Notes under the pieces: generated by a model
What the model was told of the DNA's origin: nothing
Databases searched by the model: none
Seen by the model: the letters and a program-made list of their open reading frames with translations, nothing else
Translations under genes and position numbers: made by a program
Assembly (NCBI RefSeq): GCF_037201915.1
Contig: NZ_CP147505.1
Location: 1,674,001-1,738,000, forward strand
Reading direction: 5' to 3'
DNA length: 64,000 nt
From: Haloplanus sp. CK5-1
GTDB taxonomy: Archaea > Halobacteriota > Halobacteria > Halobacteriales > Haloferacaceae
Shown here: one piece after another, positions 13,576 through 52,568 of the stretch
Layout of the letters: the number at the start of each line of letters is the position of its first letter
Numbering within the stretch: position 1 is the first letter of the stretch

Positions 13576-14344
13576 GGTCGTCCTCGCCACGGTCATCGTG
13601 CTGCTCGCCGCGACCGTCCCGGCGGCGGCGGTGTCCGTCACTGGCGAGGACGTCCCCTCGGAGGGGGAAGTCGGCACGCAGGTTTCGGCGACGATCACGC
13701 TGGAAGAACTGTACCAGAACCCACAGAGCGAGCGGTGGCAACTGTCGGGGGAGACGGGACTGACCGACGTGTCGTGGACCGTGACGCTCTACGACCAGAC
13801 TGGCTCACAGGTCGACATCGTCGAACCGACCGGCCAGTCCTTCTCGTCGGTCGATATCGCCGCCGAGAGCGGCACGGCGGCGGTCGAGATCCGCGTCACC
13901 GGAACCGTGCCCGCGATCGACTCGTACAGCTACGACCCGGCCGAGGAGTTCCTGCTGATGGAACTCACGCGCGGCCAGGAGGGCGGAGCCAGCAACACGA
14001 TCGATAGCTGGCAGACCCACCACTACACCGCCGAGAGCGACTCGGCACGCGAGGCCATCGATGAGGCCGGGAGCGCGATCGACGACGCGGAGGCGAGCGG
14101 TGCGACTCCCAGCGACGCACGGGCCAACTACGAGGACGCGATCGCCGCCTACGAGGAGGGGAGCTTCGGTGTCGCGACCAACCTCGCCAACCGGGCGACC
14201 GAGCAGGCAAACAGCGCCCAGCAGTCCCAGCAGACCCAGCAGTTGCTCATCTACGCCGTCGGCGGCCTGCTCGTGGTCGCGCTCGCCGTCGGGGGCGTCC
14301 TCTACTGGCGCTCCCAACAGGGCCCCGAGGATCCGCTGGGGTAA
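13544..14344 (+). CDS. Secreted, C-terminally anchored membrane protein overlapping cetZ
   Basis: A 266-residue protein with an N-terminal signal peptide (about 10-30, ending AAAVS), an extracellular beta-rich domain (30-145), a helical Ala/Glu-rich segment with repeated AIDEAG/AIDDAE and YEDAIAAYEEG units (160-220), a Gln/Ser linker and one C-terminal membrane helix (232-252). It begins inside cetZ in another frame and ends in an ATG-overlap with cofC. Family not recognised. Its strict linkage to cetZ makes a role at the envelope connected with cell shape a reasonable guess, not a demonstrated one. Confidence 0.75.
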   Translation: MTRTNSNRSSRVVLATVIVLLAATVPAAAVSVTGEDVPSEGEVGTQVSATITLEELYQNPQSERWQLSGETGLTDVSWTVTLYDQTGSQVDIVEPTGQSFSSVDIAAESGTAAVEIRVTGTVPAIDSYSYDPAEEFLLMELTRGQEGGASNTIDSWQTHHYTAESDSAREAIDEAGSAIDDAEASGATPSDARANYEDAIAAYEEGSFGVATNLANRATEQANSAQQSQQTQQLLIYAVGGLLVVALAVGGVLYWRSQQGPEDPLG

Positions 14345-14973
14345 TGCGGACCCTCGTCCCGTTCGAGGCGACACGACCAAAGACGCGACTCGACCCCTTA
14401 CTCGCCGCCGACGAGCGGGCGGCGTTCGCCCGTGCGATGCTCCGTGACGTGATCGATGCCGTCGAGCGCGCCGGTCACGATCCCGAGGTGGTGTCGACCG
14501 CACCCCTGGACTCGGTCGAGGGCCCCGTCGCGGTCGACGACCGCCCGCTCTCGGCGGCGGTGAACGACCGTCTCGACGGAGCGGACGCGCCGGTGGCCGT
14601 CATCGTCGCGGACCTCGGTCTGGTGACGCCGGCGGCCGTGCGTCGCCTCGTCGACGGTGGCGGAGACGCCGACGTCGCCATCGCCCCGGGACGGGGTGGC
14701 GGGACGAACGGTCTGGTCGTCGCCCACCCCGAGTTCCGGGTCGACTTCCACGGCACCTCCTACCGCGACCACCGCCGGGCCGCCCACGCGGTCGGGGCGA
14801 CGGTCCGCGTCGTCGACTCGATGCGGCTGTCGACCGACGTGGACGAACCCGCGGACCTCGTCGAGGTGTTGCTCCACGGCGAAGGCAGGGCGGCGTCGTG
14901 GCTCCGGTCGGCCGGGGTCGACCTCGACGGCGGCGACGGCCGGGTCGGGGTGCGGAGGGCGGACGAGGGGTGA
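14344..14973 (+). CDS. cofC: 2-phospho-L-lactate guanylyltransferase
   Basis: A 209-residue nucleotidyltransferase-fold enzyme. The N terminus (TLVPFEATRPKTRLDPLL) carries the Lys/Arg nucleotide-binding pattern, ADLGLVTPAAV corresponds to the metal-binding strand, and APGRGGGTNGLVV is the family box. CofC activates 2-phospholactate (or a related 3-carbon phosphate) with GTP in coenzyme F420 synthesis. It is followed 34 nt later by cofG, which supports the assignment. The start overlaps the stop of the upstream gene (TAATG). Confidence 0.9.
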   Translation: MRTLVPFEATRPKTRLDPLLAADERAAFARAMLRDVIDAVERAGHDPEVVSTAPLDSVEGPVAVDDRPLSAAVNDRLDGADAPVAVIVADLGLVTPAAVRRLVDGGGDADVAIAPGRGGGTNGLVVAHPEFRVDFHGTSYRDHRRAAHAVGATVRVVDSMRLSTDVDEPADLVEVLLHGEGRAASWLRSAGVDLDGGDGRVGVRRADEG

Positions 14974-15007
14974 TACCTTTTTCACCGTCGGCCGACCATC
15001 CGGAGTC

Positions 15008-16174
15008 GTGTCACGGGCACCCGAGACCGACGACGAACGGGTCGACCCCGATTCGCTCGTCGACGCCGACGCCGTCGACACCCTCCTCGGCGTCACCCCG
15101 GCGGACGTCGACCCGGCGGCGGAGCTCAGCTTCGCGCGAAACGTCTTCCTGCCGCTGACGACAGCCTGCCGGTACACCTGCACCTACTGTTCGTTCTACG
15201 ACGTGCCCGGCGAGGCGACGCTGATGCCCCCGGACGCGGTCCGGGAGCAACTGCGCCACGGGGCGGCGGCCGGCTGTACCGAGGCGCTGTTCACGTTCGG
15301 CGACGCGCCGGACGATCGGTACACGGCGATCCACGACCGGCTCGACGAGTTGGGCTGTGACTCGATGCTCGACTACCTCGTAGAGGCCTGCGAGATGGCG
15401 CTCGACGCCGGCCTGCTCCCCCACAGCAACCCCGGCGACCTGACCGAGGCGGAGTTCGACCGCCTCGCCGAGGTGAACGCGAGCATGGGCGTAATGTTGG
15501 AGACGACGGCCGACGTGACCGCCCACTCCGGGAGTCGGAAGAAGACCCCCGAGCGCCGACTCGGGACGATCCGTGCGGCCGGCGAGGCCTCCGTACCCTT
15601 TACCACGGGCATCCTCGTCGGCATCGGCGAACGGCCCCGCGACCGGGCCGAGAGCCTCCTCGCCATCGCCGCGCTCCACGAGCGGTACGGCCACGTTCAG
15701 GAGGTGATCGTCCAGAACGTCGTGCCCAACGAACGCTCCGAGTTCGACCGGCCGAGCGTCGAGACGATGCGCGAGACGGTAGCGATGGCCCGGGCGGCAC
15801 TGCCTCCGGAGGTGTCCGTGCAGGTCCCGCCCAACCTCTCGCCGACCCGCGAGTTGCTCGACTGTGGCGTCGACGACCTGGGCGGCGTCTCGCCGGTCAC
15901 GGAGGACTACATCAACCCCGACTACGCCTGGCCCGAACTCGGCGAACTGCGGGACATCGCGGCGTCGGCGGACGTCCCCCTGCGGGAGCGACTTCCGACC
16001 CACGAGCGATACCTTCCCGAACGGTTCCGACGGGCGGCCGGCCGGCCGGCGGCCGAGGGATCGTGGCTCCGCCTCCCCATCCGCGAGGCGCTCGACGGGA
16101 TGGAACAGCGTCGGGCGGCCGGCGAGGGCGGGCAGGAGCGGCGGCCACGCCCTCCGGCGGCCGACGACGACTAG
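15008..16174 (+). CDS. cofG: FO synthase subunit CofG (radical SAM)
   Basis: A 388-residue radical SAM enzyme with the CRYTCTYCSF iron-sulfur motif near residue 52. With CofH it makes FO (8-hydroxy-5-deazaflavin) from tyrosine and a diaminouracil ribitol. NPGDLTEAEF and the NVVPNERSEF segment are typical of CofG. I start at GTG 15008, which gives the family N terminus; an upstream frame would run into cofC. It converges with a membrane-protein gene and the stops share CTAG at 16171-16174. cofH lies nearby on the opposite strand. Confidence 0.9.
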   Translation: MSRAPETDDERVDPDSLVDADAVDTLLGVTPADVDPAAELSFARNVFLPLTTACRYTCTYCSFYDVPGEATLMPPDAVREQLRHGAAAGCTEALFTFGDAPDDRYTAIHDRLDELGCDSMLDYLVEACEMALDAGLLPHSNPGDLTEAEFDRLAEVNASMGVMLETTADVTAHSGSRKKTPERRLGTIRAAGEASVPFTTGILVGIGERPRDRAESLLAIAALHERYGHVQEVIVQNVVPNERSEFDRPSVETMRETVAMARAALPPEVSVQVPPNLSPTRELLDCGVDDLGGVSPVTEDYINPDYAWPELGELRDIAASADVPLRERLPTHERYLPERFRRAAGRPAAEGSWLRLPIREALDGMEQRRAAGEGGQERRPRPPAADDD

Positions 16175-16725
16175 AGCAACCGCTCCTCGACCCGAGGCAG
16201 GTGCTTGCGGACGAGTGTGTAGAGCGCGCCGACTGCGAGGAAGGCGACGGTCACCCGACGGACGGTCGGCCCGAAGAGGACGAGGCCCGGCGAGAAACAG
16301 AGTACGGTGACGAGGTAGTCCTCGGGGGCGCCGTCGTAGCGGATCCAGTAGCGCGGGGCGATCCACTGGCTCCGCGAGTGGAGGTACACCGCCTCGGCGG
16401 AGGTTCGCTCCCACGGGCGGGCTTCCGTCCCGGCACCGAAGACGTCGCTCACGGAGTGGACGGCCGCCGAGCAGAGGAAGGTGGCGACGGCGACTGTCTC
16501 CGGGCCGGGCGCGACGGCGGCGACGACGAGGGCGGGAACCGTCCCCACCCAGTAGTAGTCGGGGAAGTGGAGCGTCCTTCGGTGGACGCCGGCGAGCAAG
16601 TCGAGGTCGGGGAAGACACCGCCAGCGACGCCGGCGAGGGCGGCGACGGGGGCGAGGTCTGGAGCCACGACCGTCAGCGGCAGGGCCAGACAGAGGCCGA
16701 CGGCCGCGTGGGTGGTGGCCATCAT
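16171..16725 (-). CDS. Membrane-bound metal-dependent hydrolase (YdjM/DUF457-like)
   Basis: A 184-residue protein with several membrane segments. His/Asp residues near the N terminus (TTHAAVG, VFPDLDLL, HRRTLHFPDYY) match the LexA-regulated YdjM/DUF457 group of putative membrane hydrolases. It sits one base after the cofH stop on the same strand, so it is probably expressed from the cofH transcript. Its stop overlaps that of cofG. The substrate is unknown; linkage to F420 genes may be positional only. Confidence 0.75.
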   Translation of the reverse strand: MMATTHAAVGLCLALPLTVVAPDLAPVAALAGVAGGVFPDLDLLAGVHRRTLHFPDYYWVGTVPALVVAAVAPGPETVAVATFLCSAAVHSVSDVFGAGTEARPWERTSAEAVYLHSRSQWIAPRYWIRYDGAPEDYLVTVLCFSPGLVLFGPTVRRVTVAFLAVGALYTLVRKHLPRVEERLL

Positions 16726-16726
16726 G

Positions 16727-18091
16727 TCAGTCGTCCGCCGGCGATGGGGGGGAGGTATCGAGCATCGGCGTGCCGTCGGCGCGGGGGCCCAGACGCGGGC
16801 CGTGGGGCCGCTCGTCCGGGTCGATCGGGCGACGGCGCTCGTAGTCGGTCGAGCGCTCGACCGGCCGCCGGCCGATGGCCGTCACCATGTCGACGTAGTC
16901 GGCGACCGACCGAAACTCGCCGTAGTCGCCGCCCGCGCGCTTGGTAATCTCTTCGGAGAGCAGCGTCCCCATGAAGTCGTTCGCGCCACAGGAGAGCGTC
17001 TTCAGCGACTTCTGGTCGCCGAACTTCGTCCACGAGGTCTGGATGTTCTCGATGTTGTCGAGAAAGAGACGGGAGACGGCGATCATGAGTTCGTCCTCGG
17101 CGTCGCTCGCGCCGCCGTCGACGAGGCCCCGTTCGTACAGCGGCGTCCGCTCGTGGACGAAAGAGAGGGGGACGAACTCGGTGATACCACCGGTGCGGTC
17201 CTGCAGGTCGCGCACCCGCTTCAGGTGCATGACGCGGTGCATCTCGTTCTCGACGTGGCCGTACATGATCGTCGCGGTGACGGGGAGACCGGCGGCCATC
17301 GCTCCCTCCATCGCGTCCAGCCACTCGTCGGTGTCGATCTTCGCGGGACAGATCACGTCCCGAACCTCGTCGACGAGTATCTCGGCGGCCGTGCCGGGGA
17401 CGCTGTCGAGGCCGGCCTCGCGGAGGCGGCGGTAGACCGACTCGTAGGAGCGGTCGGTGCCCCTACGGGCGTGGTAGGCCTCCTCGGGCGTGATCGAGTG
17501 GACGTGGACGCCGTCGACCGACATGGCGCGGATCTGTTCGGCGTACGTGCCCGGCGACGTGGTGTAGGCATCGGGCGGCCGGTAGTTCACCCGCTCGGGG
17601 TCCGGATGAGAGGCGAGCAGTTCGCGGTGGTCAGAATCGAGGGCGAAGGCGGGGTGGAGGCCGCTGACCGAACACACCTCGTAGATACCCATGTCGAGGG
17701 CGTCCTCGACGGCCTGCCGGGACTCGGCGGGTGTCTTGGTGAACCCGCCGTGGTCGTCGGGGGCGTCGGTCTCGAACGTCGACGCGCGGTCCTTGAAATT
17801 ACAGAACAGACAGCCAGTGTCGCAGGCCGTCGTGACGTTGTTGTTGAGGTTGGCGACGAAGGTGACGTCGTCGCCGACCACCTCCGCGCGGCGGTGGTCG
17901 GCCGCCTCCAACACGCGCTCCTTCCGAACGGGGTCGATTCCGGAGCTGTCGGTGCCGGTCGTCAGGAGTTCGACGCCGTCGGCGACGGTGAGGCGGTGGC
18001 CGTCCCGGGCTTTCGCGAGTGCGTTCTCGAAGTGCTGGTCGGTCTCGGGGACGTGATCGAACGCCGCAACCGCCTCGGCCGGGTCGCTCAT
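16727..18091 (-). CDS. cofH: FO synthase subunit CofH (radical SAM)
   Basis: A 454-residue radical SAM enzyme. The iron-sulfur motif is CDTGCLFCNF (CxxxCxxC) near residue 89. NNNVTTACDTGC, YRPPDAYTTSPGTYAEQI and SVDGVHVHSITPEE are CofH-like. It couples the tyrosine-derived radical to the uracil precursor, and CofG then closes the deazaflavin ring. The ATG at 18091 gives the usual start; 24 further in-frame residues upstream are Arg/Ser-rich and not typical. A Pro/Arg-rich C-terminal extension (last 40 residues) looks haloarchaeal. The gene is divergent from uppS and followed by a membrane hydrolase. Confidence 0.9.
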   Translation of the reverse strand: MSDPAEAVAAFDHVPETDQHFENALAKARDGHRLTVADGVELLTTGTDSSGIDPVRKERVLEAADHRRAEVVGDDVTFVANLNNNVTTACDTGCLFCNFKDRASTFETDAPDDHGGFTKTPAESRQAVEDALDMGIYEVCSVSGLHPAFALDSDHRELLASHPDPERVNYRPPDAYTTSPGTYAEQIRAMSVDGVHVHSITPEEAYHARRGTDRSYESVYRRLREAGLDSVPGTAAEILVDEVRDVICPAKIDTDEWLDAMEGAMAAGLPVTATIMYGHVENEMHRVMHLKRVRDLQDRTGGITEFVPLSFVHERTPLYERGLVDGGASDAEDELMIAVSRLFLDNIENIQTSWTKFGDQKSLKTLSCGANDFMGTLLSEEITKRAGGDYGEFRSVADYVDMVTAIGRRPVERSTDYERRRPIDPDERPHGPRLGPRADGTPMLDTSPPSPADD

Positions 18092-18195: not shown

Positions 18196-19122
18196 ATGGA
18201 CTCGCGGCTCCGTCGATGGATCGACCGCGCCTACGAGCGCCTGCTCCGGCGCGATATCGACGGCAGTCCCGACCACGTCGCGATCATCCAGGACGGCAAC
18301 CGGCGGTACGCCCGCGAGCGTGGCGACGGAACCGCTGCTGGCCACCGGAAGGGAGCCCGAACCACGGAGCAGGTGTTGCGCTGGTGTCGGGAGCTCGGCA
18401 TCGAGGAGCTCACCCTCTACGCGTTCTCGACGGAGAACTTCGAGCGCCCGCCCGACGAGCGCGAACACCTGTTCGACCTCATCGAGGCGAAACTCCGGAA
18501 GTTCGCCGACGCGACGGAGATACACGAGAACGAGGTGTGCATCCGTGCGCTGGGTGACGTCGACCGCCTGCCCGACCGGGTTCGGGACGCCGTCGCCTAC
18601 GCCGAGGAACGGACCGAGTCCTACGACCGCTTCCGGCTGAACGTCGCGCTGGCGTACGGCGGGCGGGCGGAACTCCTGGAAGCGGCCCGCGACACGCTGG
18701 AGGCGGTCGAGGCGGGCCGTCTCGACCCCGCGGGCGTCGACACGGCAGAAATCGAGCGCCGCCTCTACGCCCGGCCGGTCCGGGACGTGGACCTGATCGT
18801 CCGCACGGGCGGCGACGAGCGGACGAGCAACTTCCTGCCGTGGCACGCCAACGGCAACGAGGCGGCCGTCTTCTTCTGTGCACCCTACTGGCCGGAGTTC
18901 TCGAAGGTCGACTTCCTCCGGGCGATCCGCACCTACGAGTCCCGCGAGGCGTCGTGGCGACACACGCGAACCGAGCGGGCGGTCGCGCTGGTCAGGGCAG
19001 TCGCGGGGTCGTCGCTGGTCGAGACGCGGGAGGTCGTCGGCCGCCTGCGCGAGCAGTTGCCCCGGGCGAGCGCCGAGGAACTGTCGGCCGAACTCGACAT
19101 CCAGGACGGGCGGGTGGACTGA
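18196..19122 (+). CDS. uppS: cis-Prenyltransferase (undecaprenyl/polyprenyl diphosphate synthase), catalytic type
   Basis: A 308-residue cis-prenyltransferase. The catalytic DGNRR (33-37) with metal-binding Asp33 is intact, as are FSTENF, LIVRTGGDERTSNFLPW and the CAPYWPEFSKVDFLRAI region. It elongates isoprenyl diphosphate chains to the lipid carriers used for protein glycosylation. The usual C-terminal RxG (RRFG) motif is absent after YESREAS; instead about 65 extra residues follow. A second, complementary family member lies at 20909-21517. The start is the ATG giving MDSRLRRW; longer in-frame options overlap the divergent cofH. Confidence 0.9.
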   Translation: MDSRLRRWIDRAYERLLRRDIDGSPDHVAIIQDGNRRYARERGDGTAAGHRKGARTTEQVLRWCRELGIEELTLYAFSTENFERPPDEREHLFDLIEAKLRKFADATEIHENEVCIRALGDVDRLPDRVRDAVAYAEERTESYDRFRLNVALAYGGRAELLEAARDTLEAVEAGRLDPAGVDTAEIERRLYARPVRDVDLIVRTGGDERTSNFLPWHANGNEAAVFFCAPYWPEFSKVDFLRAIRTYESREASWRHTRTERAVALVRAVAGSSLVETREVVGRLREQLPRASAEELSAELDIQDGRVD

Positions 19123-19169
19123 CCGCGACGACGCCGGGACCTTTGTAATGCCGGGGCGTAGCCCGGCGT

Positions 19170-20060
19170 ATGGCAACGGTCGAACCCGCGACGACCACGT
19201 CGCCGCCGCCCGTCGGACCGGCGGGGCTCGCCGACTACGGGACACTCGTCGTCCGCGGTGCGTGGTTTTTCGCCGGCTTCCTCGGCGTCGTCCTCGTCGG
19301 CTGGTTCGTCGTCGAACCACTCGTCTCGCGCTACGTCGCCCGCCGCAACCGAAACAATCCGACGATCGAGGAGGCGGTGTCGCGGTACGTCCGCCTGGGA
19401 TCCCTCGTCGTCGCCTTCTTCGTCGCCGCCGGAGTCGCCGGCTACGGCGACCTGGTCGGCGACTCGGCGCTCGTCATCGCCGCGGCGACGCTCGCCGTCG
19501 GGGTGGCGGGCCAGACGGTCATCGGCTCCATCGTCAGCGGCCTCGTCCTGGTCGCGGATCCCGAATTCAACGTTGGCGACTACATCAAGTGGGGCGACAC
19601 CGAAGGGACGGTCCAGTCCATCACACTCCGCGTGACGCGCGTGCTGACACCGAACGGGGAACTCGTCACCGTCCCGAACACGACCCTGACCAGTGGTGCG
19701 GTCACCCGTCCGTTCGGGCGGGGCCGACACCGCGTCGTCGAACGCGTCGGACTGGCCTACGAGGCCGACGTCGCCGACGCGCTCGACCACCTCACCGATG
19801 CGGCGTCGGCAGTCGAGGGGATCGAGTCGGCACCGACGCCGAAGGCGTACGTCGACGACCTCGGCTCGGACGCGGTCGTCGTTCGCGTCTACTACTGGAT
19901 CGAGGACCCACGGCGGCGGGGGATATTCGAAATCCGATCTCGGTACGCACGGACGGTCAAGGAACGGCTGGACGCGGCGGGAATCGAGATCAGTCCGGCG
20001 TCGAAGCGCGAACTTCGCGGGCGGATCGAGGTGTCGGATGACACCTCGGACGGTACCTGA
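19170..20060 (+). CDS. MscS-family mechanosensitive channel
   Basis: A 296-residue membrane protein with three membrane segments (about 28-50, 72-92 and 97-122) followed by the MscS beta domain (DPEFNVGDYIKWGDTEGTVQSITLRVT) and a C-terminal alpha/beta domain. The pore-lining helix shows the Gly/Ala pattern typical of TM3 (GVAGQTVIGSIVSGLVL). It opens under membrane tension and protects against osmotic downshock, a real risk for a halophile. It lies 47 nt after uppS on the same strand. Confidence 0.9.
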   Translation: MATVEPATTTSPPPVGPAGLADYGTLVVRGAWFFAGFLGVVLVGWFVVEPLVSRYVARRNRNNPTIEEAVSRYVRLGSLVVAFFVAAGVAGYGDLVGDSALVIAAATLAVGVAGQTVIGSIVSGLVLVADPEFNVGDYIKWGDTEGTVQSITLRVTRVLTPNGELVTVPNTTLTSGAVTRPFGRGRHRVVERVGLAYEADVADALDHLTDAASAVEGIESAPTPKAYVDDLGSDAVVVRVYYWIEDPRRRGIFEIRSRYARTVKERLDAAGIEISPASKRELRGRIEVSDDTSDGT

Positions 20061-20185
20061 CTGCGGCGGACCCGCCACCAGACGGCCGACGAACGGCCCG
20101 AAACCGGGGTAACTCGGCTGAACTCGGGTTGATCCGGGATGGAGGGTCTCGGCGGTTTATGTCCCGGCAGGTACTCGGCCGAGTC

Positions 20186-20821
20186 ATGAGTGAATCCGAC
20201 CGAGACGTGCGGACTGGATCGCGACGCGACTACCTGCGGACGACCGGGGGCCTCGCCGCCGCCGGGGTCGCCGGACTGGCCGGCTGTACGGGCGGCACTA
20301 CGACCGGGACGCTCGCGACGCAGGTGACCGACCAGCCGGGTGACATCGGCGACTTCGAGTCCTGTGTCGTGACCGTCGCCGGGATCTGGGTGAAATCCGG
20401 AAGCGGGGACGACGAGGAAACCGCCGACAGCGAGGGGACGACGGTCGACGAGAGCGACGCCCGCGAGTACCACGAGTTCGACGAGCCACGGGAGGCCGAT
20501 CTGGTCCAGTTGCAGGACGGCAACACGTCGCTGCTCGGCGAACACGAACTGGAGACGGGGACTTACGCGTTCGTCCAACTCGACGTGACGGGCGTCGACG
20601 CGACGATCGCCGACGGCGGGGACGCGACCGTCGACACGCCCGGCGAGGCACCGCTCCAGTTCAAGCAGGCCTTCGACATCCGCGAGGACACCCGAACCGT
20701 GTTCACGGCCGACTTCACGCCCGTCCGTCGGGGGCGGAGCGGGTCGTACCTCCTCCAGCCGGTGGCGCGGGGGACGAGCGTCGAGTACGAGTCGGTCGAG
20801 GGGACCGAGACCGAAGCCTGA
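20186..20821 (+). CDS. Tat-exported lipoprotein with DUF4382-like domain
   Basis: A 211-residue secreted protein. The N terminus has a Tat motif (SRRDYLRTTGG) and a lipobox (LAGC), so it should be exported folded and lipid-anchored, as is usual in haloarchaea. The mature part reads like DUF4382: TLATQVTDQPGDIGDFES, LVQLQDGNTSLLGEHELETGTYAFVQLDV and FTADFTPVRRGRSGSYLLQPVA. The ATG at 20186 follows a GGTTTATG promoter element by about 30 nt; two further upstream in-frame ATGs would bury the signal peptide. Function unknown. Confidence 0.82.
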   Translation: MSESDRDVRTGSRRDYLRTTGGLAAAGVAGLAGCTGGTTTGTLATQVTDQPGDIGDFESCVVTVAGIWVKSGSGDDEETADSEGTTVDESDAREYHEFDEPREADLVQLQDGNTSLLGEHELETGTYAFVQLDVTGVDATIADGGDATVDTPGEAPLQFKQAFDIREDTRTVFTADFTPVRRGRSGSYLLQPVARGTSVEYESVEGTETEA

Positions 20822-20887
20822 TGACACGACGTGATTCGGCCTACCGGCCGAACTTCCGAGGGACTTCACTACCGTTCGTCCCTCGGC

Positions 20888-20921
20888 GTTCGGACGCTTC
20901 GCTGGCGCTCAGCGTCCGAAC
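20888..20921. repeat. 11-bp inverted repeat at a gene end
   Basis: GTTCGGACGCT (20888-20898) and AGCGTCCGAAC (20911-20921) form a perfect 11-bp hairpin with a 12-nt loop. It overlaps the stop codon of the minus-strand cis-prenyltransferase-like gene and lies between two convergent genes. There is no T run, so it may act as a transcript-end or mRNA-stability structure rather than a classical terminator. Confidence 0.45.
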
Positions 20922-21517
20922 CTCCGCTGACGATTCTGATAATCCAGCACGGCGCGCAGGTAGTCGCGCTTGCGCACGTCTCGCCAGTTCACGTCGGTGA
21001 AGTAGAGTTCCGAGTAGACGGACTGCCAGATCATGAAATCGGAGAGGCGCTCGGCCCCCGTCTTGACGAGGAGGTCGGGTTCGTCGGGAAAGATCAGGCG
21101 GCGCTCCACGTCGGCCCCGTCGACGTCCGCGGGGTCGAGACGGCCGGCGTCGACCTCCTCGGCGAGCGAGCGGACGGCGGCGGCGAACTCCCCCTTGCCG
21201 CCGAGGCCGACGTTCACCTGAACGGGGGCTGCGACGGGGTCGGTGTCGTCGGGGGCGCGCACCGCGACCGATCGGGGGGCGTCGATGGATCGGAGTTCCC
21301 GCTCCAGCGTCGGCACCACCGCCTCGTCGAGGACGCTCACCGAGACGGTGACGCGGTCGGCACCGTACTCGAACGCCCAGCCGAGGACGCGTTCGAGACG
21401 GGCGTACGCCCCCTGTTCCAACAGGTCACGCTCGGTGAGGACGAAGGCGACGTGCGCGGGAGGGTCGCCGTCGTGGAGGCGCTGTCTGAGAGCGAGATAC
21501 CGGTCGTACAGTCCCAC
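20909..21517 (-). CDS. cis-Prenyltransferase-like protein lacking the catalytic Asp motif
   Basis: A 202-residue member of the undecaprenyl diphosphate synthase family. At the position of DGNRR it has LTERD (27-31), so the metal-binding Asp and nearby Arg pair are lost. The C-terminal half is conserved (DLLVKTGAERLSDFMIW, YSELYFTDVNW) and ends in RRFGR, the RxG motif absent from the catalytic homologue at 18196-19122. In heteromeric cis-prenyltransferases one subunit carries DGNRR and the other RxG; I infer this protein is the accessory subunit. It starts with GTG at 21517, divergent from a DUF92 gene. Confidence 0.8.
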   Translation of the reverse strand: MGLYDRYLALRQRLHDGDPPAHVAFVLTERDLLEQGAYARLERVLGWAFEYGADRVTVSVSVLDEAVVPTLERELRSIDAPRSVAVRAPDDTDPVAAPVQVNVGLGGKGEFAAAVRSLAEEVDAGRLDPADVDGADVERRLIFPDEPDLLVKTGAERLSDFMIWQSVYSELYFTDVNWRDVRKRDYLRAVLDYQNRQRRFGR

Positions 21518-21623
21518 ACCGACCGCAGGTGGCGACGGCGCAAAAGCCCAACGGGTGGCGGACCGCGGGGGGACGGCGGGGCGTGTCGGGAGCGTTAAGT
21601 GGCCGTCGAAGGTAGCGGTGGAT

Positions 21624-22937
21624 GTGACGTCCACCCTTCGGCGGGCGGGAGGGTTCGCGGCGGTCGGGACGCTCGCGCTCGCCGCCCCCGAACTCGGACG
21701 TGCGGCCGCCGCCCCCTTCGCCATCGTCGCGCTTCTCGCGGCGTTCGTGATCGACGAGGGACCGGCGTTCGACCTGTTCGCCCGGCCACAGGACCGTCGC
21801 GACGGCCGCCTCAACGGACTGGCCGGCTTCGCGCTGGCGGCCACGGGGCTGGCGATCCTGTCGACGGCACCCCGGGCGTCGATGCCGACTGCCGTCTTCG
21901 TCGCGGCGGTGTTTGTCGTCGGTTACGGCAACGTCGGCGCGTGTGCCGTCGAACGGGTCGACACCGATCCGTTCCGCGTCGTCGCGGGCTTCAGCCTCGT
22001 CGCCTTCGCCGCTGCCGTCGCCGGGCAACTGGTCGTCGGGTGGACCCTCGGTTCGTCCCGGCCGGTGCCGACCGTCGTCTTCCTCGCCGCGGCCGGCGCG
22101 CTGGTGGCGGCGCTCCTTCGATCGATGCTGTTCGAACGCGACGATCCCATCGTGATGCTGTCGACCGGGCTCCTGCTCTGGCTGTTCGAGGGTATCGGCG
22201 TCGGTCCGGGGTTCGAGGAAGTCGGCGTCGCACTCGGCGTGACGGTCGCCCTCGGCTACGCCTCGTATCGCACCGGTACGGCGTCCGTTCCGGGTATGGT
22301 GACCGGCGTGTTGCTCGGTCTGCTCACCATCGTCTTCGGCGGCTTCGGGTGGTTCGCCGTCCTCATCGCCTTCTTCGGGATCGGTGGCCTCTCCGCGAAG
22401 TACCGGTACGAGGAGAAGCGCTCGCGAGGGGTCGCCGAGGACAACGAGGGGGCACGGGGAAGTGGCAACGTCCTCGGCAACGCCGCCGTCGCCCTGATCG
22501 CCGTCATCGGCTTCGCCGCGAGCGCCGAGTTCCCGGTCGAGGGCGCGCTCTTTCGCTTCGCCTTCACCGGGTCGCTCGCCGCCGCGATGAGCGACACCCT
22601 GTCGAGCGAAATCGGCGTCCTGTTCGACCGACCACGACTCATCACGACGCTCCAACGCGTCGATCCCGGCACCGACGGCGGGATCACGTGGCAGGGGTAT
22701 CTCGTCGGCGTCGTCGGGGCTGGAGTCGTCGCCGGCGTCGCCGTCGCCCTGTTCGGTTTCGACCGGCCGGCGCTCGCGGCGGCGACCGTCGTCTGTGGCG
22801 GCGTCGCCGGCATGACCGTCGACAGCATCCTCGGCGCGGTGCTCGAAGGCGGGCGCGTCGGCAACCAGACCGTCAACTTCCTCGGCACGCTCGCCGGAGC
22901 TATCACGAGCGCCGGCCTCGCCGTCCTGTTGCTGTGA
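21624..22937 (+). CDS. DUF92-family integral membrane protein
   Basis: A 437-residue protein with about a dozen membrane segments. The second half has the DUF92 boxes: GFGWFAVLIAFFGIGGLSAKY, GNVLGNAAVA, FTGSLAAAMSDTLSSEIG and GNQTVNFLGT. A plant DUF92 member (VTE6) is a phytyl-phosphate kinase, so a role with isoprenoid alcohol phosphates is possible. That fits its position divergent from a cis-prenyltransferase-like gene, but is inference. The start is GTG at 21624 (another GTG lies 6 nt upstream). The stop overlaps the next gene by 4 nt (GTGA). Confidence 0.8.
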   Translation: MTSTLRRAGGFAAVGTLALAAPELGRAAAAPFAIVALLAAFVIDEGPAFDLFARPQDRRDGRLNGLAGFALAATGLAILSTAPRASMPTAVFVAAVFVVGYGNVGACAVERVDTDPFRVVAGFSLVAFAAAVAGQLVVGWTLGSSRPVPTVVFLAAAGALVAALLRSMLFERDDPIVMLSTGLLLWLFEGIGVGPGFEEVGVALGVTVALGYASYRTGTASVPGMVTGVLLGLLTIVFGGFGWFAVLIAFFGIGGLSAKYRYEEKRSRGVAEDNEGARGSGNVLGNAAVALIAVIGFAASAEFPVEGALFRFAFTGSLAAAMSDTLSSEIGVLFDRPRLITTLQRVDPGTDGGITWQGYLVGVVGAGVVAGVAVALFGFDRPALAAATVVCGGVAGMTVDSILGAVLEGGRVGNQTVNFLGTLAGAITSAGLAVLLL

Positions 22938-47200: not shown

Positions 47201-48196
47201 ATGACCGACGACGAGACCCGCGAGGAGTTTCACGAGGATCCGCTGGAGCACACCGAGGTGTGGGCCGGCATGAGCGTCGGCGACCTGGCGACCGAGTACG
47301 GCAAGGCGGGCATCGGCGCGAAGGACATGGGCCACGCCGTCGACGTGTACGCCGAGATGCTCAACCGGGACGACGTGACCAACTTCTTCGGACTCGCGGG
47401 CGCGATGGTGCCCGGCGGGATGCGGTCGGTCGTGGCGGACCTGATCCGCGACGGCCACATCGACGTCCTCGTCACGACGGGAGCGAACCTGACCCACGAC
47501 GCCATCGAGGCCATCGGTGGCCACCATCACCACGGTCGGACCGGCGAGGACGGGCGGGAGCGCGAACACGACGAGCGACTCCGAGACGAGGGGGTCGACC
47601 GCATCTACAACGTCTACCTGCCCCAGGAACACTTCACGCTGTTCGAAGAGCACCTCCGGGACGACGTCTTTCCCGAGTTCGACGGTCCGGTCGCCATCAG
47701 CGAGTTCACGCGGGAACTCGGGCGCGCGAACCGGGCGGCGAACCGCGAACGCGGACTCGACGCCGACGCCGGCATCGCCGCCGCTGCGTACGCGAACGAC
47801 GTCCCCGTGTTCGTTCCTGCGATCCAAGACTCCGTACTGGGGATCCAGGCGTGGATGCACTCGCAGGTCTCCGCGTTCACCTTCGACGCCCTCGCCGACC
47901 TGACGAACATCACCGACGTGGCGTTCGACGCCAAGAAGGCGGGGGCGACGGTCGTCGGCGGCGGCGTCCCGAAGAACTTCGTCCTGCAGACGATGCTGAC
48001 GGTCCCCGAGGCGTACGACTACGGCGTCCAACTCACCGCCGATCCCGCCTCGACCGGCGGCCTCTCCGGGGCGACGCTCGACGAGGCGCGGTCGTGGGGG
48101 AAGCTAGAGAAGTCGGCGCGAAACGCCACCGTGTTGGGCGACGCCACCATCACCCTCCCCCTGCTCGTCGCCGCGGCACGCGACCGGATCGAGTAG
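47201..48196 (+). CDS. dys: Deoxyhypusine synthase
   Basis: A 331-residue NAD-dependent deoxyhypusine synthase. It has the NAD and substrate boxes (VTTGANLTHD, FVPAIQDSVLGIQAW, VVGGGVPKNF) and the active-site lysine K301 in EARSWGK. A His-rich stretch (GGHHHHGRT, 106-114) is a local insertion. It transfers an aminobutyl or related group to K36 of eIF5A, encoded three genes upstream. An alternative TTG start 30 nt earlier adds 10 basic residues and is not favoured. The gene is the last core gene before the AT-rich island. Confidence 0.93.
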   Translation: MTDDETREEFHEDPLEHTEVWAGMSVGDLATEYGKAGIGAKDMGHAVDVYAEMLNRDDVTNFFGLAGAMVPGGMRSVVADLIRDGHIDVLVTTGANLTHDAIEAIGGHHHHGRTGEDGREREHDERLRDEGVDRIYNVYLPQEHFTLFEEHLRDDVFPEFDGPVAISEFTRELGRANRAANRERGLDADAGIAAAAYANDVPVFVPAIQDSVLGIQAWMHSQVSAFTFDALADLTNITDVAFDAKKAGATVVGGGVPKNFVLQTMLTVPEAYDYGVQLTADPASTGGLSGATLDEARSWGKLEKSARNATVLGDATITLPLLVAAARDRIE

Positions 48197-48240
48197 TCGC
48201 AAGGCTCTTTTTCCGGTCGGTGCGTACCGCCGCGTGGCCG

Positions 48241-48351
48241 ATGACGAGTGCACCACTCCGAGCCGGGGTGGCACCCGGCGACGACGAGCCCTATGAGTGC
48301 CGAGGCCACCGATTTACTGGTACCAGTAGACGAAATTCGGGTGAGCGTTAA
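48241..48351 (+). pseudogene. Truncated zinc-ribbon-like small ORF at the island border
   Basis: A 36-codon ORF with haloarchaeal codon use for its first 22 codons, reading DDEPYECRGHRF. Small haloarchaeal rubrerythrin-like or zinc-ribbon proteins often start with D-P-Y-E-C followed by more CxxC pairs; here only one Cys is present and the frame ends in a basic tail in low-GC sequence. I read it as the 5' stub of such a gene cut by the island. Alternatively it is a chance ORF. Confidence 0.35.
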
Positions 48352-48465
48352 TCACCATCCGTCTTATAGAAACAGACTGCTAGGCTCAAACCAGACGAAT
48401 CTCCGGGTTACCACTCCGCTGTGAACCTACTTCAAGCGCACACTCGTTAGCCAATTTTCGCTGCT

Positions 48466-48490
48466 GAAACTCTGAGGTCAAGATTTTTAT
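48466..48490 (+). promoter_or_regulatory. Duplicated promoter, copy 1
   Basis: A 25-nt block with GAGGTCAAG followed by TTTTTAT, matching copy 2 (49703-49727) at 22 of 25 positions. In both copies the end of TTTTTAT is exactly 36 nt before the ATG. It is probably BRE/TATA plus an upstream regulator site. Confidence 0.6.
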
Positions 48491-48525
48491 TATTATGTTT
48501 GAATGTGACAAGAGACAACGAAACT

Positions 48526-49617
48526 ATGCCGTCCTCTGAGTATCCTGACGCCGTCTTGGAATATGTGGTGGCTCAGGGATGGACAACGAACCTCACTGAG
48601 CTACGAGAAGGGGCGTATATTATTGCTGGAGAGCGAAAGGGAGATTCTGGCTCTGAAAAAATGCTTCTGATGATCGTCTGCGAGCCGGAACAAGAAGTCA
48701 CGTCAGAACACATAGAATATCTGATTAAAGCTGGACGAGAGAAGAACGTCGATTCGGTACTGCTGACATATACTGTCCAGATTACAGAGAACGCCCGAGA
48801 GATGACTAGCGAATACGGGATAGATGAAATCAAGCCGGAGAAAATCCGTTCACATAATGAAACTGGTGAGTTTGCTGTAGGCACTGACGAGATATCGATG
48901 CCTGGCTCCGATTCAGATTCTCGGTCAGATTCGGTCGACGAGACAGCCACGAAAGGAAAAGAGCCAACAGATGAGAGAATACACAGCATCAGAGCGAATT
49001 ACACACAGTCGGAGGGCCGATCTGTAGGTGGCAACCTGATCCTATCGGAGACTTTACTTTTTTTCGAGCCGCATAAAATTGCAGAACTGAGTGGCGAAAA
49101 AGAAATTAAAGTCTCATATGATAATATCAAAGAACTGAACAGAGAAAAGAGGTTCAATCGAGGTATAAAAGATGCGATATTTGGTGGGGGATTAAGAGAT
49201 AGATTGAGAATTAGAACCCATAGTGGTAGAGAACTGCTTTTCGCCGTGTCTAATATCGAAGATGTGATGAATAAAATAAATAGATTGAAACAATCGGAAC
49301 AAGCACAGACTCGATCGCTTGGTGAATACCTTTCAGAGACGGATGAACGATCTGGGGAGCCCACAACGTTAACCCTCGGTCTTACCGCTTCTTGGATTAT
49401 TGGGCTATTTACACTAATTGTTGGTAGTAACTTATTCTGGAATCAAGGTCGTCTGAGTGGCCTCCTGTATATGATTGCGGGTGCAATCGTTGCTCCGTAT
49501 ACACGTAGATACGTAGAATCATTTGTAGGTGTGAAATTTGGTCGTTGGTTCCTTGTTGCCACGTGGATTGTTGTTTGCTTCATAGCGGCTCTTATGTACG
49601 CAGCTACGCCCGTCTAA
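48526..49617 (+). CDS. Island membrane protein A: REase-like N domain, PH/GRAM-like domain, membrane segments
   Basis: A 363-residue protein. Residues 1-110 form an alpha/beta domain resembling the restriction-endonuclease-like fold seen at the N terminus of many haloarchaeal membrane proteins, but the catalytic ExK-type strand reads LMIVCEPE, so nuclease activity is unlikely. A Ser/Asp linker (125-150) leads to a PH/GRAM-like beta domain (about 155-255: GGNLILSETLLFF, EIKVSYDNIKEL). Three membrane helices follow (280-303, 309-325, 340-360). Codon use is AT-rich, unlike the flanks, suggesting transfer. The ATG is chosen because the paralogue starts at the same motif (EYPDAVLEY). Confidence 0.75.
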   Translation: MPSSEYPDAVLEYVVAQGWTTNLTELREGAYIIAGERKGDSGSEKMLLMIVCEPEQEVTSEHIEYLIKAGREKNVDSVLLTYTVQITENAREMTSEYGIDEIKPEKIRSHNETGEFAVGTDEISMPGSDSDSRSDSVDETATKGKEPTDERIHSIRANYTQSEGRSVGGNLILSETLLFFEPHKIAELSGEKEIKVSYDNIKELNREKRFNRGIKDAIFGGGLRDRLRIRTHSGRELLFAVSNIEDVMNKINRLKQSEQAQTRSLGEYLSETDERSGEPTTLTLGLTASWIIGLFTLIVGSNLFWNQGRLSGLLYMIAGAIVAPYTRRYVESFVGVKFGRWFLVATWIVVCFIAALMYAATPV

Positions 49618-49702
49618 TTTAGAGTGATTGTGAATTATATTCAGTTTATGATATGTCGTGTGATATACGAAAGGATAAGCAACGAGTGAAAATTCTACGA
49701 TT

Positions 49703-49727
49703 GAAATTTTGAGGTCAAGCTTTTTAT
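49703..49727 (+). promoter_or_regulatory. Duplicated promoter, copy 2
   Basis: Matches copy 1 at 22 of 25 positions, again with GAGGTCAAG plus TTTTTAT and 36 nt from the end of TTTTTAT to the ATG. Each paralogue therefore has its own near-identical promoter. Confidence 0.6.
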
Positions 49728-49762
49728 CGTGGTAATGAAACGAACCAATAGATAACAGCAGT

Positions 49763-50821
49763 ATGTCGTCTCTTGAGTATCCTGATGCTGTCTTAGAGTA
49801 TGAACAGGCACGGGGATGGACTACAGATCTCACGGAGTTACGAGAAGGAGTGTATATTGTTTCCGGAGAGCGCAAGAGAGATGCTAGCTCCGAAAAGATG
49901 CTTCTGATGATCGTCTGCAAACCTGAAAACGAGATCACGTCAAATCATATAGAATTTCTGATTAAAGCTGGGCGAGAGAAGGATATTAATTCAGTGATGC
50001 TAACGTATACTGTCCAACTTACAGAGAACGCCCAAGAGCAGTGCGAAAAATACGGAGTAGATATAATCGATTCAGAAAAAGTACGATCCTACACCGAATC
50101 GGGCGGCTTCGATGTTGATATTACTGATATCCAGATGCCCGGATCTGGATCAGAGAGCCAGACCGATATATCATCTAATTCTAAGCTTCTCACACGGCGT
50201 AATGCGGTTCTTCTGTTGGGAGGAATAGGGACAGTAGCCTTGTTAGGCAATGGTGGAAATAATGGGTTAGAACTCATAGATGCAGTTCCCCGGAGAGAGC
50301 CGAGTGGATGGGCTATTTGGCATTTTAATGTGAAAAATACAGGTGAAACTCAGAACGCTCGCGCTTACGTGGACATAAGAATCACCACAGGTGAGAACGC
50401 AGGAGAGGTGACTGAATCGTATGACAGCACAAAGGTGATCGAGAGCGGCGAGACAGCAGACATCAGGGTCGACAGTACGTACTACACAAACACAGAGGAT
50501 TACGAGTTCGATTACGGTATTGAACCAACGGACCGTCCACACGCAACGTTCGAAGTGGCCTCTGAGGATTCGAAATTTCGTTTAGACGCGTCGGAATCAA
50601 CCTCCGTGACGAGTTCTATCACGTCTTACGAGTGGTCGGCACACGAATTTACTATACCAGAGTACGGCGAACCTCTGAATTGGAACATACCCGACGGAGA
50701 AATAATCGATTTCGAGGTGCCGTCCAAGCGGACTCTTGACCTCGTACTGAAAGTCACAGACGAAGAGGGACGGACTGATGAGAAAGATAAACGCCTATCG
50801 CGTTCTGAATATTGGGCGTAG
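49763..50821 (+). CDS. Island membrane protein B: REase-like N domain, one membrane helix, Ig/PKD-like extracellular part
   Basis: A 352-residue paralogue of protein A. Residues 1-110 are about 70% identical to A (77 of 110 by my count), while everything after about 125 is unrelated. A single membrane segment (147-164) preceded by LTRRN leads to an extracellular-type part: a CARDB-like strand region (183-240, WHFNVKNTGETQNARAYVDIR) and a PKD-like domain (260-345, RLDASES, SYEWSA, LDLVLKVTDEEG). The N-terminal domain should be cytoplasmic. AT-rich codon use matches A. Function unknown; nuclease activity is doubtful because the key strand is VCKPE. Confidence 0.75.
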   Translation: MSSLEYPDAVLEYEQARGWTTDLTELREGVYIVSGERKRDASSEKMLLMIVCKPENEITSNHIEFLIKAGREKDINSVMLTYTVQLTENAQEQCEKYGVDIIDSEKVRSYTESGGFDVDITDIQMPGSGSESQTDISSNSKLLTRRNAVLLLGGIGTVALLGNGGNNGLELIDAVPRREPSGWAIWHFNVKNTGETQNARAYVDIRITTGENAGEVTESYDSTKVIESGETADIRVDSTYYTNTEDYEFDYGIEPTDRPHATFEVASEDSKFRLDASESTSVTSSITSYEWSAHEFTIPEYGEPLNWNIPDGEIIDFEVPSKRTLDLVLKVTDEEGRTDEKDKRLSRSEYWA

Positions 50822-51357
50822 TGTCCAGATACGGATGTAACGACGTTGCCGAGCGATCGCACGGTGTGGCCGCCGAAATCTCCGACCGGGTTCGAGAAAT
50901 CGCCGAAGCTCGCGGCCTTCGGGAGTCCGAAGCGTTCGAGCGGGGACTCGAACTGCTGTCAGCGTTCGATACGCTCCTGATTCCGGAGACAGTCTACGAG
51001 GAAGTTGAGGCCGGTGGCGTCCCCGACGGGTTATCCGCCCTCCCGTACGAACTCGTCGAAGCCGACGAAAGACGAGTCGGAACTGAAAAACTGGATGGCG
51101 GAGAACGCGCCGCGATTGCGGTAGCTGAAGAGCGGGGAGTCGTTCTCCTAACCGACGGCCTCGCCGCCCGAGCGGCAGTATCCGACGCTGACGTCGAAGT
51201 GCACGGCTCTATCGGCGTAATTGCGCTTGGTCCCGCTCGGAGAGTACTCGACAAGGACGAGGCGACATCACTCGTGCGTACACTCCAACATGAGACGAGC
51301 CTCTTCGTGACGGAGACAGTCGTGGAGCATAGCATCCAGATGCTGGACGGACAGTGA
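50821..51357 (+). pseudogene. Antitoxin-PIN toxin fusion relic (DUF3368-like)
   Basis: A 178-codon frame. Its start (VAAEISDRVREIAEARGLRESEAFERGLELL) looks like a small VapB-type antitoxin; then it passes directly into the middle of a PIN toxin (LSAFDTLLIPETVYEEV, GGERAAIAVAEERGVVLLTDG, GSIGVIALGPARRVL). The PIN N terminus with the first catalytic Asp (VxDTSxLI) is missing, so the toxin part should be inactive. An in-frame deletion that joined the two genes of a toxin-antitoxin pair explains it. The GTG used overlaps the previous stop. GC-rich codons set it apart from the island genes upstream. Confidence 0.6.
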
Positions 51358-51551
51358 CGGAACGAGCGGACTCTATAGGCGCGGCAAAGACGGTAGACGA
51401 CGTCCGAACCGCCGAATCCCGGCATAGTTAGCCGAGCACTCGCGTCGGCAACCGCAATTCGGGACGTTCGTTTTCACGGTCCCGTCGCTCGACCGTCCCG
51501 TGGATCCGCGACTCAAGGATACCGCCACCGATCCGAGAGTTAATGCTTTAG

Positions 51552-51565
51552 TATATTCGCATCTT
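51552..51565 (+). promoter_or_regulatory. TATATTCG promoter element, glutaredoxin-like gene
   Basis: TATATTCGCATCTT begins 31 nt before the ATG at 51583. It is one of four related elements; see 52900, 52960 and 54610. The 215-nt region between the toxin relic and this site has no gene I can support. Confidence 0.55.
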
Positions 51566-51582
51566 CTAATCTATCGCAACCA

Positions 51583-51843
51583 ATGCTGGAGCTCTATCAA
51601 TCGGAAGGCTGTCCACACAGTGCGAAGGTTCGGGAGAAACTGTCGGAACTCGGTGTCTCGTGTGTCGTTCACAACCCGCGCCTTCCCGGCGACGAGGGCG
51701 GGGACGTGACCAATGAGGTGACCTACGGCGAACTCACGGCGAGCGGTGAAGACCAGATCCCGTATCTCGTCGACACCGAACGCGGCGTGACGATGTACGA
51801 GAGCGACGACATCGTCGAATATCTCGCCGAACACTACGAGTAA
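51583..51843 (+). CDS. Glutaredoxin/GST N-terminal-domain protein
   Basis: An 86-residue thioredoxin-fold protein. The active-site-like motif CPHS is at residues 10-13 in LYQSEGCPHSAKV, the cis-Pro is in QIPYLVD, and the C terminus has the GST_N helix (ESDDIVEYLAEHY). With one Cys it is of the monothiol or GST type. It probably handles thiols or disulfides in the cytoplasm; haloarchaea use gamma-glutamylcysteine rather than glutathione. It carries the shared TATATTCG element, linking it to the nearby ArsR gene. Confidence 0.85.
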   Translation: MLELYQSEGCPHSAKVREKLSELGVSCVVHNPRLPGDEGGDVTNEVTYGELTASGEDQIPYLVDTERGVTMYESDDIVEYLAEHYE

Positions 51844-51875
51844 GGACAAATGTCGATGTCCGGACCACGACGGCC

Positions 51876-52568
51876 ATGACCGACGTAGAACAGGAGGACG
51901 CGGCGGCCGCATTTCGGGAGATCCTGGAGACGGTCGACGACGAGATCGAGGATTTGGCGACGTCAGGGGGGATCACGGCGGACACGCGAGGCGACTTGTC
52001 GGTCGATACGCTGTTACGCATCGCGCGGTGGCGATCCGTCCAGAGCGCCGTCCTCTACGGTGACTGGGCCGACCGGCAGCGCGTCACGGGGATGGACGCG
52101 GAGGTCGCACTCGCTGCGGCGTGGAAGGCTGGCCGATCCGTCGAGCAGTACGAGGCCGTGACCGACCACCTCAGCAGCCGCGGTGTCGATCCCGAGCCGG
52201 TCGAGTACGCACTTCACGGGGAAACGCTACAGTTCATGGCCGACCTGACCGACCCGGTCGCCCGAGTCACCGCGGGGTTCGTCGTCGCTCCCAAACTTCG
52301 CGCCGTCAAGGACAAACAGGCGACACTCGTCGCGACCGGCAACGCCGACCCGCAAACGGCCAGCCTCTATCGGGATACCATCGTCCCACCCGAAGAGGAG
52401 GCCATCGAACGCGGCAAACGACTGCTTTCACGCTATCTCGACGACGACGATACATCCGCCGTGAAGACCGTCGAGGAGACCGCCGACGCCTTCCTCGAGG
52501 TCACGTGGAAGTCCCAAGAACGGGCGATGGACGAGACGGGCGATATCGACCCGAAGACGATCTGTTAG
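51876..52568 (+). CDS. All-helical haloarchaeal protein of unknown function
   Basis: A 230-residue protein predicted to be almost all helix, without membrane segments. It carries conserved-looking acidic/aromatic helices (MDAEVALAAAWKAGRSVEQYEAV, PPEEEAIERGKRLL, ETADAFLEVTWKSQERAM). Several Glu and His on helices make a ferritin-like or other metal-binding bundle possible, but I cannot identify ligands with confidence. It follows the glutaredoxin-like gene by 32 nt and is likely in its transcript. It converges with arsR; stops share TTAG at 52565-52568. Confidence 0.65.
   Translation: MTDVEQEDAAAAFREILETVDDEIEDLATSGGITADTRGDLSVDTLLRIARWRSVQSAVLYGDWADRQRVTGMDAEVALAAAWKAGRSVEQYEAVTDHLSSRGVDPEPVEYALHGETLQFMADLTDPVARVTAGFVVAPKLRAVKDKQATLVATGNADPQTASLYRDTIVPPEEEAIERGKRLLSRYLDDDDTSAVKTVEETADAFLEVTWKSQERAMDETGDIDPKTIC

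Follow-up and report, generated by a model that had tools for sequence, protein, structure and literature searches.

Two cis-prenyltransferase genes in the window

We analysed a 64,000-nucleotide stretch of the genome of the haloarchaeon Haloplanus sp. CK5-1 (contig NZ_CP147505.1, positions 1,674,001 to 1,738,000 of the forward strand). This stretch is referred to as the window, and its own numbering is used below. It carries two genes of the cis-prenyltransferase family PF01255, here called A and B, whose products are probably the two subunits of one enzyme. The genes and their key motifs are as follows.

18196..19122, + strand: gene A, putative catalytic cis-prenyltransferase subunit, 308 amino acids; ATG start; PF01255; DGNRR present, RxG absent
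18289..18306, + strand: QDGNRR codons of A (residues 32-37), including the catalytic Asp; Asp, Asn and Arg columns conserved in 172/172 A sequences
20909..21517, - strand: gene B, putative non-catalytic cis-prenyltransferase subunit, 202 amino acids; GTG start; PF01255; protein ends in RRFGR
20909..20926, - strand: codons of the C-terminal RRFGR of B and the stop codon; tail predicted to complete the active site of A across the dimer interface

Both proteins are members of the PF01255 superfamily, with scores above the curated cut-off (27). Protein A matched positions 1-216 of the 219-position profile with 232.7 bits, and B matched positions 116-219 only, i.e., the C-terminal half, with 83.8 bits. 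The NCBIfam equivalog model for polyprenyl diphosphate synthase (TIGR00055, cut-off 109.55) accepted A (237.3 bits) and did not accept B (77.7). A helical extension of about 55 amino acids is present at the C-terminus of A. Protein B was 95% identical to a homologue from a Haloplanus metagenome-assembled genome and 89% identical to that of Haloplanus ruber. A and B were the only PF01255 genes in the whole 3.24-Mb single-contig genome, so A has no other source of an RxG motif.

Active-site residues are divided between A and B

A and B sequences were taken from 180 regions representing the haloarchaea and the rest of the phylum, and from further loci found by genome searches. One A cut by the locus end (genome G281) and one frameshifted B (G184) were dropped before alignment. 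The final alignment contained 172 A, 156 B and seven other homologues, with Escherichia coli UppS (L243) as the numbering reference.

Every A sequence had the UppS residue at D26, N28, R30, S71, R77, R194, R200 and S202 (172/172 each). Among the B sequences, the UppS residue was found at D26 in 11/156, N28 in 2/156, R30 in 1/156, S71 in 2/156 and R77 in 0/156; R194 was kept in 28/156, and R200 and S202 in 117/156 each. The C-terminus showed the reverse distribution. R241, R242 and G244 were present in 156, 154 and 156 of the 156 B sequences, and in 17, 3 and 4 of the 172 A sequences, respectively. R242 and G244 occurred together in no A, and RxG was accordingly found in the aligned columns of 0/172 A sequences. 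In B, RxG was found in 154/156 sequences, the remaining two having KxG, and the chain ended exactly one residue past the Gly of this [RK]xG motif in all 156. DGN was detected in 0/157 B proteins; the 11 with Asp in the D26 column all came from outside Halobacteria, and none of them had DGN. The only A locus without DGNRR among the 52 inspected was L265, which has a frameshifted N-terminus. The N-terminal half of B was shorter than that of A (the strand at E. coli position 139 is preceded by a median of 98 residues in B and 147 in A), and mean pairwise identity was 0.50 for B and 0.54 for A.

The first-pass annotation, made from the window alone, had described a 308-residue protein that keeps DGNRR and lacks the C-terminal RxG and a 202-residue protein that has LTERD in place of DGNRR and ends in RRFGR. 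Both descriptions were confirmed, DGNRR lying within QDGNRRYA at residues 32-39 of A. The loss of motifs in A and B is real, position-specific and far beyond chance, and the split into a catalytic A and an RxG-bearing B is systematic and holds across the phylum. Three sequence features expected of a heteromer of the DHDDS-NgBR or M. mazei type were found: one subunit (A) has the catalytic Asp and the substrate residues and lacks RxG, the other (B) lacks the catalytic residues and has the C-terminal RxG tail, and both are encoded in the same genome.

Distribution, copy number and phylogeny

PF01255 matches were detected in 292/292 haloarchaeal genomes, with two matches in 281 genomes, one in 1, three in 8 and four in 2. 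In a phylum-wide draw, matches were detected in 292/295 genomes. No PF01255 match was found in the three genomes drawn from family f18 (G298, G307 and G316; 86-91% complete), the only concordant loss of A and B that we saw; this family has possibly lost the cis-prenyl carrier pathway.

As the larger searches give match counts only, typing into A and B was counted on 147 genomes (40 + 47 + 60) for which every match was listed. These covered 75 of the 76 sampled haloarchaeal genera, the 76th being that of the window itself, as well as 22 families from the rest of the phylum. B was present in 147/147 genomes and A in 146/147. The two genes occurred together in 146/147, the exception being a 120-contig assembly (G072) with B and no A. 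Defective B copies were limited to one cut by a contig end (G236) and the frameshifted copy in G184. Seven genomes carried two A and one B (G061, G068, G098, G148, G149, G260 and G105), one carried three A and one B (G226), and one carried two of each (G195). Co-occurrence had been named in the first-pass annotation as a check that might overturn the pairing, and the pairing withstood it, with f18 lacking both genes. We rejected co-occurrence as proof of an interaction, since both genes are nearly universal. Similarly, the pairwise identities of A and B were correlated (r = 0.94, 145 paired genomes), and this value was computed and set aside, since vertical inheritance alone would make any two genes correlate.

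On a quick phylogenetic tree of 93 rows, A, B and homologues of the M. mazei protein MM_0014 (see below) each formed one clan, with SH-aLRT (approximate likelihood ratio test) support of 93, 99 and 100, respectively. The tree is consistent with one ancient split of A and B; we do not read it as proof, given the quick method and some long B branches. An odd third homologue in genome G002 (L084, 614-1900), with DGHRR and a C-terminal RNEGR, resembled none of the A, B and MM_0014 types and was left out of the tree.

Relation to the Methanosarcina mazei enzymes

Two M. mazei proteins, MM_0618 and MM_1083, are described as forming a heteromeric cis-prenyltransferase with C45-50 products, probably serving as glycosyl carrier (PMC8131916, citing Emi 2019, BBRC 520:291). 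A third, MM_0014, is described in the same paper as a homodimer that lacks RxG and makes C25-40 products (PMC8131916). In two Methanosarcina-type genomes (G504 and G514), the PF01255 genes were A, B and one MM_0014-type homologue. The copy in G514 matched the MM_0014 structure (PDB 7caq) with 458 bits and PDB 7vq9 with 459 bits, over 222 residues, and had a TLGG C-terminus. With the MM_0014 orthologue set aside, these genomes have no PF01255 genes other than A and B, and the pair in the window is thus, by exclusion, orthologous to the MM_0618/MM_1083 heteromer, taken as a pair. The A and B of G504 and G514 fell in the same clans as those of the window. Unlike in the window, where the pair is clustered, A and B were far apart and the DUF92 gene (see below) was elsewhere in both genomes; the A protein of the window also has a longer C-terminal tail.

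The MM_0014/MA1831 type resembles A in belonging to PF01255 and lacking RxG, but differs in being a homodimer that ends in TLGG and forms a separate clan (support 100). A was therefore rejected as a candidate MM_0014-type homodimer, as it falls outside that clan and its aligned C-terminal columns are not TLGG. The genome-wide PF01255 search found no MM_0014-type gene in the genome of the window. Homologues of this type, with TLGG or a similar LGG end, were seen at six loci (L154, L160, L169, L176, L179 and L231) in families f12, f13 and f27, for example in genomes G292 and G387.

Relation to eukaryotic and bacterial enzymes

The division of labour between A and B is the same as that between human DHDDS and NgBR (Rer2/Srt1 and Nus1 in yeast). 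For the human enzyme, NgBR is described as inactive by itself, and its tail, R290-L291-G292-K293, as crossing the interface and joining the DHDDS active site (PMC7573591). The same source gives the homodimeric form of DHDDS as about 400-fold slower than the DHDDS-NgBR complex. The NgBR chain, like that of B, ends one residue after RxG. Unlike B, whose short N-terminus leaves no room for one, NgBR has an N-terminal transmembrane domain (PMC7573591). The E. coli IspU/bacterial UppS homodimer has the same fold and the same active-site residues as A and B together, but carries DGN and RxG on one chain, which here are found one each on A and B.

The likeness to DHDDS-NgBR in the division of labour was not matched by signs of common descent. 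The B sequence profile matched UppS with an E-value of 1.6e-28 and NUS1 with 0.004, and the A profile matched NUS1 with 1.2e-9. B is not closer to NgBR/NUS1 than to UppS, and was not accepted as an orthologue of NgBR/Nus1. Shared descent of the pair with the eukaryotic pair is unsupported, given that B prefers UppS and that the A profile matches NUS1 better than the B profile does. We also rejected a DHDDS-like helical extension as a shared defining feature of A, because the C-terminal 76 residues of A searched alone found no DHDDS match (best E 0.37, unrelated) and many non-haloarchaeal A proteins have fewer than 10 residues after E. coli position 240.

Structure models were built with AlphaFold2 for the monomers, using alignments of 67/80 B loci and 50/52 A loci. 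The B model had a mean predicted local distance difference test score (pLDDT) of 82.4, low at residues 164-171. For A, the mean pLDDT was 75.4, and residues 237-305 at the C-terminus were modelled as a helical part. In a Foldseek search, the best match of the A model was human DHDDS (6z1n_A, E 7.3e-20), with a root-mean-square deviation (rmsd) of about 10 over some 300 columns, which implies that the domains are placed differently; the next matches were bacterial enzymes (rmsd about 2.5 over about 226 columns). The B model matched cis-prenyltransferases in general and had their fold over its full length. The NgBR chains 7pay_B and 7pax_B aligned to residues 1-202 of B with Z 12.4, scores that were tied with those of UppS-type chains.

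Gene order and neighbouring genes

Three further genes lie between or next to A and B in the window:

19170..20060, + strand: MscS-type mechanosensitive channel gene, in the gap between A and B; presumably no part of the enzyme
20186..20821, + strand: DUF4382 gene, also in this gap; presumably no part of the enzyme
21618..22937, + strand: DUF92/TIGR00297 membrane protein gene, divergent from B and conserved as its neighbour; product predicted to be a lipid kinase of the same pathway (PMC5898192)

A and B lie tail to tail on opposite strands with a gap of 1786 bp, in which the MscS-type and DUF4382 genes are found; the first-pass annotation had correctly placed them 1.8 kb apart. We scored the distance between A and B, within 10 kb, in 75 haloarchaeal genus representatives. 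The two genes were at most 10 kb apart in 60/75, one of these pairs (G078) being entered by hand from its coordinates, and all 60 pairs were convergent, with a median gap of 434 bp and a gap of at most 200 bp in 24. In other genera, A and B can directly adjoin with no genes between them. Outside Halobacteria, 22 of the fetched genomes had both genes in one stretch, of which 19 were convergent, some with overlapping 3' ends.

The DUF92 gene was found divergently beside B at no fewer than 77 of the 98 haloarchaeal B loci with at least 250 nt upstream, i.e., at least 77/98; the 21 loci where it was not seen have flanks of 281-544 nt. Coordinate comparison placed it beside B in 19 other genomes of 11 families as well, and it adjoins B even where A is distant. 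In family f13 (Methanosarcina-type) and in the examined genomes of f14, f21, f23, f28 and f29, B lacked this neighbour. A link of this kind is already published and is not new: arCOG02245 (pfam01940) is reported as a neighbour of uppS (HVO_2318) and predicted to act as a kinase, and the link is read as a shared pathway (PMC5898192). DUF92 is the neighbour of B rather than of A, which makes it probable that the gene called 'uppS' in that publication is the non-catalytic B; HVO_2318 is assigned here by its neighbourhood.

Directly upstream of A are F420 precursor genes, cofC and cofG on the + strand and cofH on the - strand (14344-18085). Elsewhere in the window, positions 48001-52000 have a G+C content of 51.5%, vs 64-72% in the remainder, and are possibly a foreign island. 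Two proteins with similar N-terminal halves are encoded inside this part, at 48499-49617 and 49763-50821.

Proposed enzyme and alternative explanations

We propose that A and B together make up a heteromeric (Z)-polyprenyl diphosphate synthase, each supplying one subunit, and put the probability of this at roughly 0.88. The residues point this way: A kept the cis-acting ones and lost the trans-acting tail, and B did the opposite, ending like NgBR. The heteromer suggested by the first-pass annotation is thus supported, both by the phylum-wide complementarity of residues and by the link, through exclusion, to the M. mazei heteromer. A would take an allylic primer and catalyse its repeated cis-condensation with isopentenyl diphosphate (IPP); the DGNRR, Ser, Arg and IPP-site residues for this reaction would come from A itself. 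B, with a dead active site, would contribute its C-terminal RxG-X tail, which would cross the dimer interface into the active site of A. There, the tail Arg may either hold Mg2+ or take its place, and the IPP diphosphate may be held by the backbone of the Gly. The RxG Arg of homodimeric enzymes is described as coordinating Mg2+ via water, and the backbone N of the Gly as holding the acceptor beta-phosphate in some structures (PMC8131916). The product would be a polyprenyl diphosphate, the precursor of a dolichol-type glycosyl carrier. The physical complex, the completion of the active site in trans, activity and chain length are all inferred from these comparisons, and dolichol would be the expected product in this organism. 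The haloarchaeal carrier lipid is a dolichyl phosphate of about C55-60.

The absence of RxG from A is not decisive by itself, because MM_0014 also lacks it and is nevertheless a homodimer; that B, in turn, has kept the motif carries more weight. A could accordingly be self-sufficient in the manner of MM_0014, with B a separate protein such as a regulator or scaffold. MM_0014 crystallises as a homodimer (PMC8131916), A has every catalytic residue checked, and the genomes with more A than B copies would suit such an enzyme. We nonetheless consider this unlikely: B retains exactly the tail that acts in trans (R241 156, R242 154 and G244 156 of 156) and has lost the residues that act in cis, as would be expected of a dedicated partner of A; A lacks the TLGG end found in 6/7 sequences of the MM_0014 type (type C); and the M. 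mazei equivalents of A and B are reported as a heteromer (PMC8131916). Less probable still is that A and B each have a different partner, such as, for B, the adjacent DUF92 protein as a module of anchor and kinase, with A-B contact of secondary importance. The divergent DUF92 gene does stay beside B when A is far off. However, in f13 and the examined genomes of the five other families without this neighbour, the complementarity of A and B is unchanged, as it is over the whole set, and the DUF92-uppS link was interpreted in its published description as a shared pathway (PMC5898192). That B is a decaying, functionless pseudo-paralogue can be dismissed almost entirely. It has lost its catalytic residues and its N-terminal half is shortened, but it is kept in 147/147 genomes with a single frameshifted and a single contig-end-cut copy, its tail is nearly invariant, and its mean pairwise identity is near that of A. 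This conservation already contradicts a lack of function.

Several observations weigh against the proposed heteromer. The evidence for an A-B complex is indirect, and the models of A and B are of moderate quality and monomers only. Some activity of A on its own is conceivable, given the MM_0014 homodimer without RxG (C25-40), and human DHDDS alone is reported to have low but measurable activity, about 400-fold lower (PMC7573591). Several haloarchaeal genomes carry extra A copies with a single B. A and B were not within 10 kb of each other in 15/75 genus representatives and, being on opposite strands, they are not co-transcribed. Their near-universality leaves co-occurrence little power to show interaction, and co-occurrence, a conserved neighbourhood and matching evolutionary distances are to be expected of many vertically inherited pairs.

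Significance

Archaeal heteromeric cis-prenyltransferases as a kind are already known, and what our analysis adds is conservation across the phylum. A description of the haloarchaeal pair as a heteromer was not found in searches of the open-access PMC literature, which is not proof that none exists. On balance, we favour a history in which the two-subunit enzyme arose before Halobacteriota diversified, replaced a homodimer as the carrier-lipid synthase independently of DHDDS-NgBR, and has been kept since, often as a tail-to-tail pair with 3' ends abutting or overlapping.

N-glycosylation of surface proteins, those of the S-layer among them, draws on the carrier lipid, and some haloarchaea, Haloferax for example, are readily studied by genetics. 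With an active site split over two genes, the contribution of the non-catalytic subunit can be tested by gene removal and by mutation of the tail; the split also bears on why heteromers evolved repeatedly. If the history favoured above is true, haloarchaeal genes that neighbour DUF92 and carry the annotation 'UppS' would encode the non-catalytic subunit. The split also predicts that only one of the two family members in haloarchaea is itself a catalyst, and that expression work on archaeal polyprenol synthesis would have to supply both.

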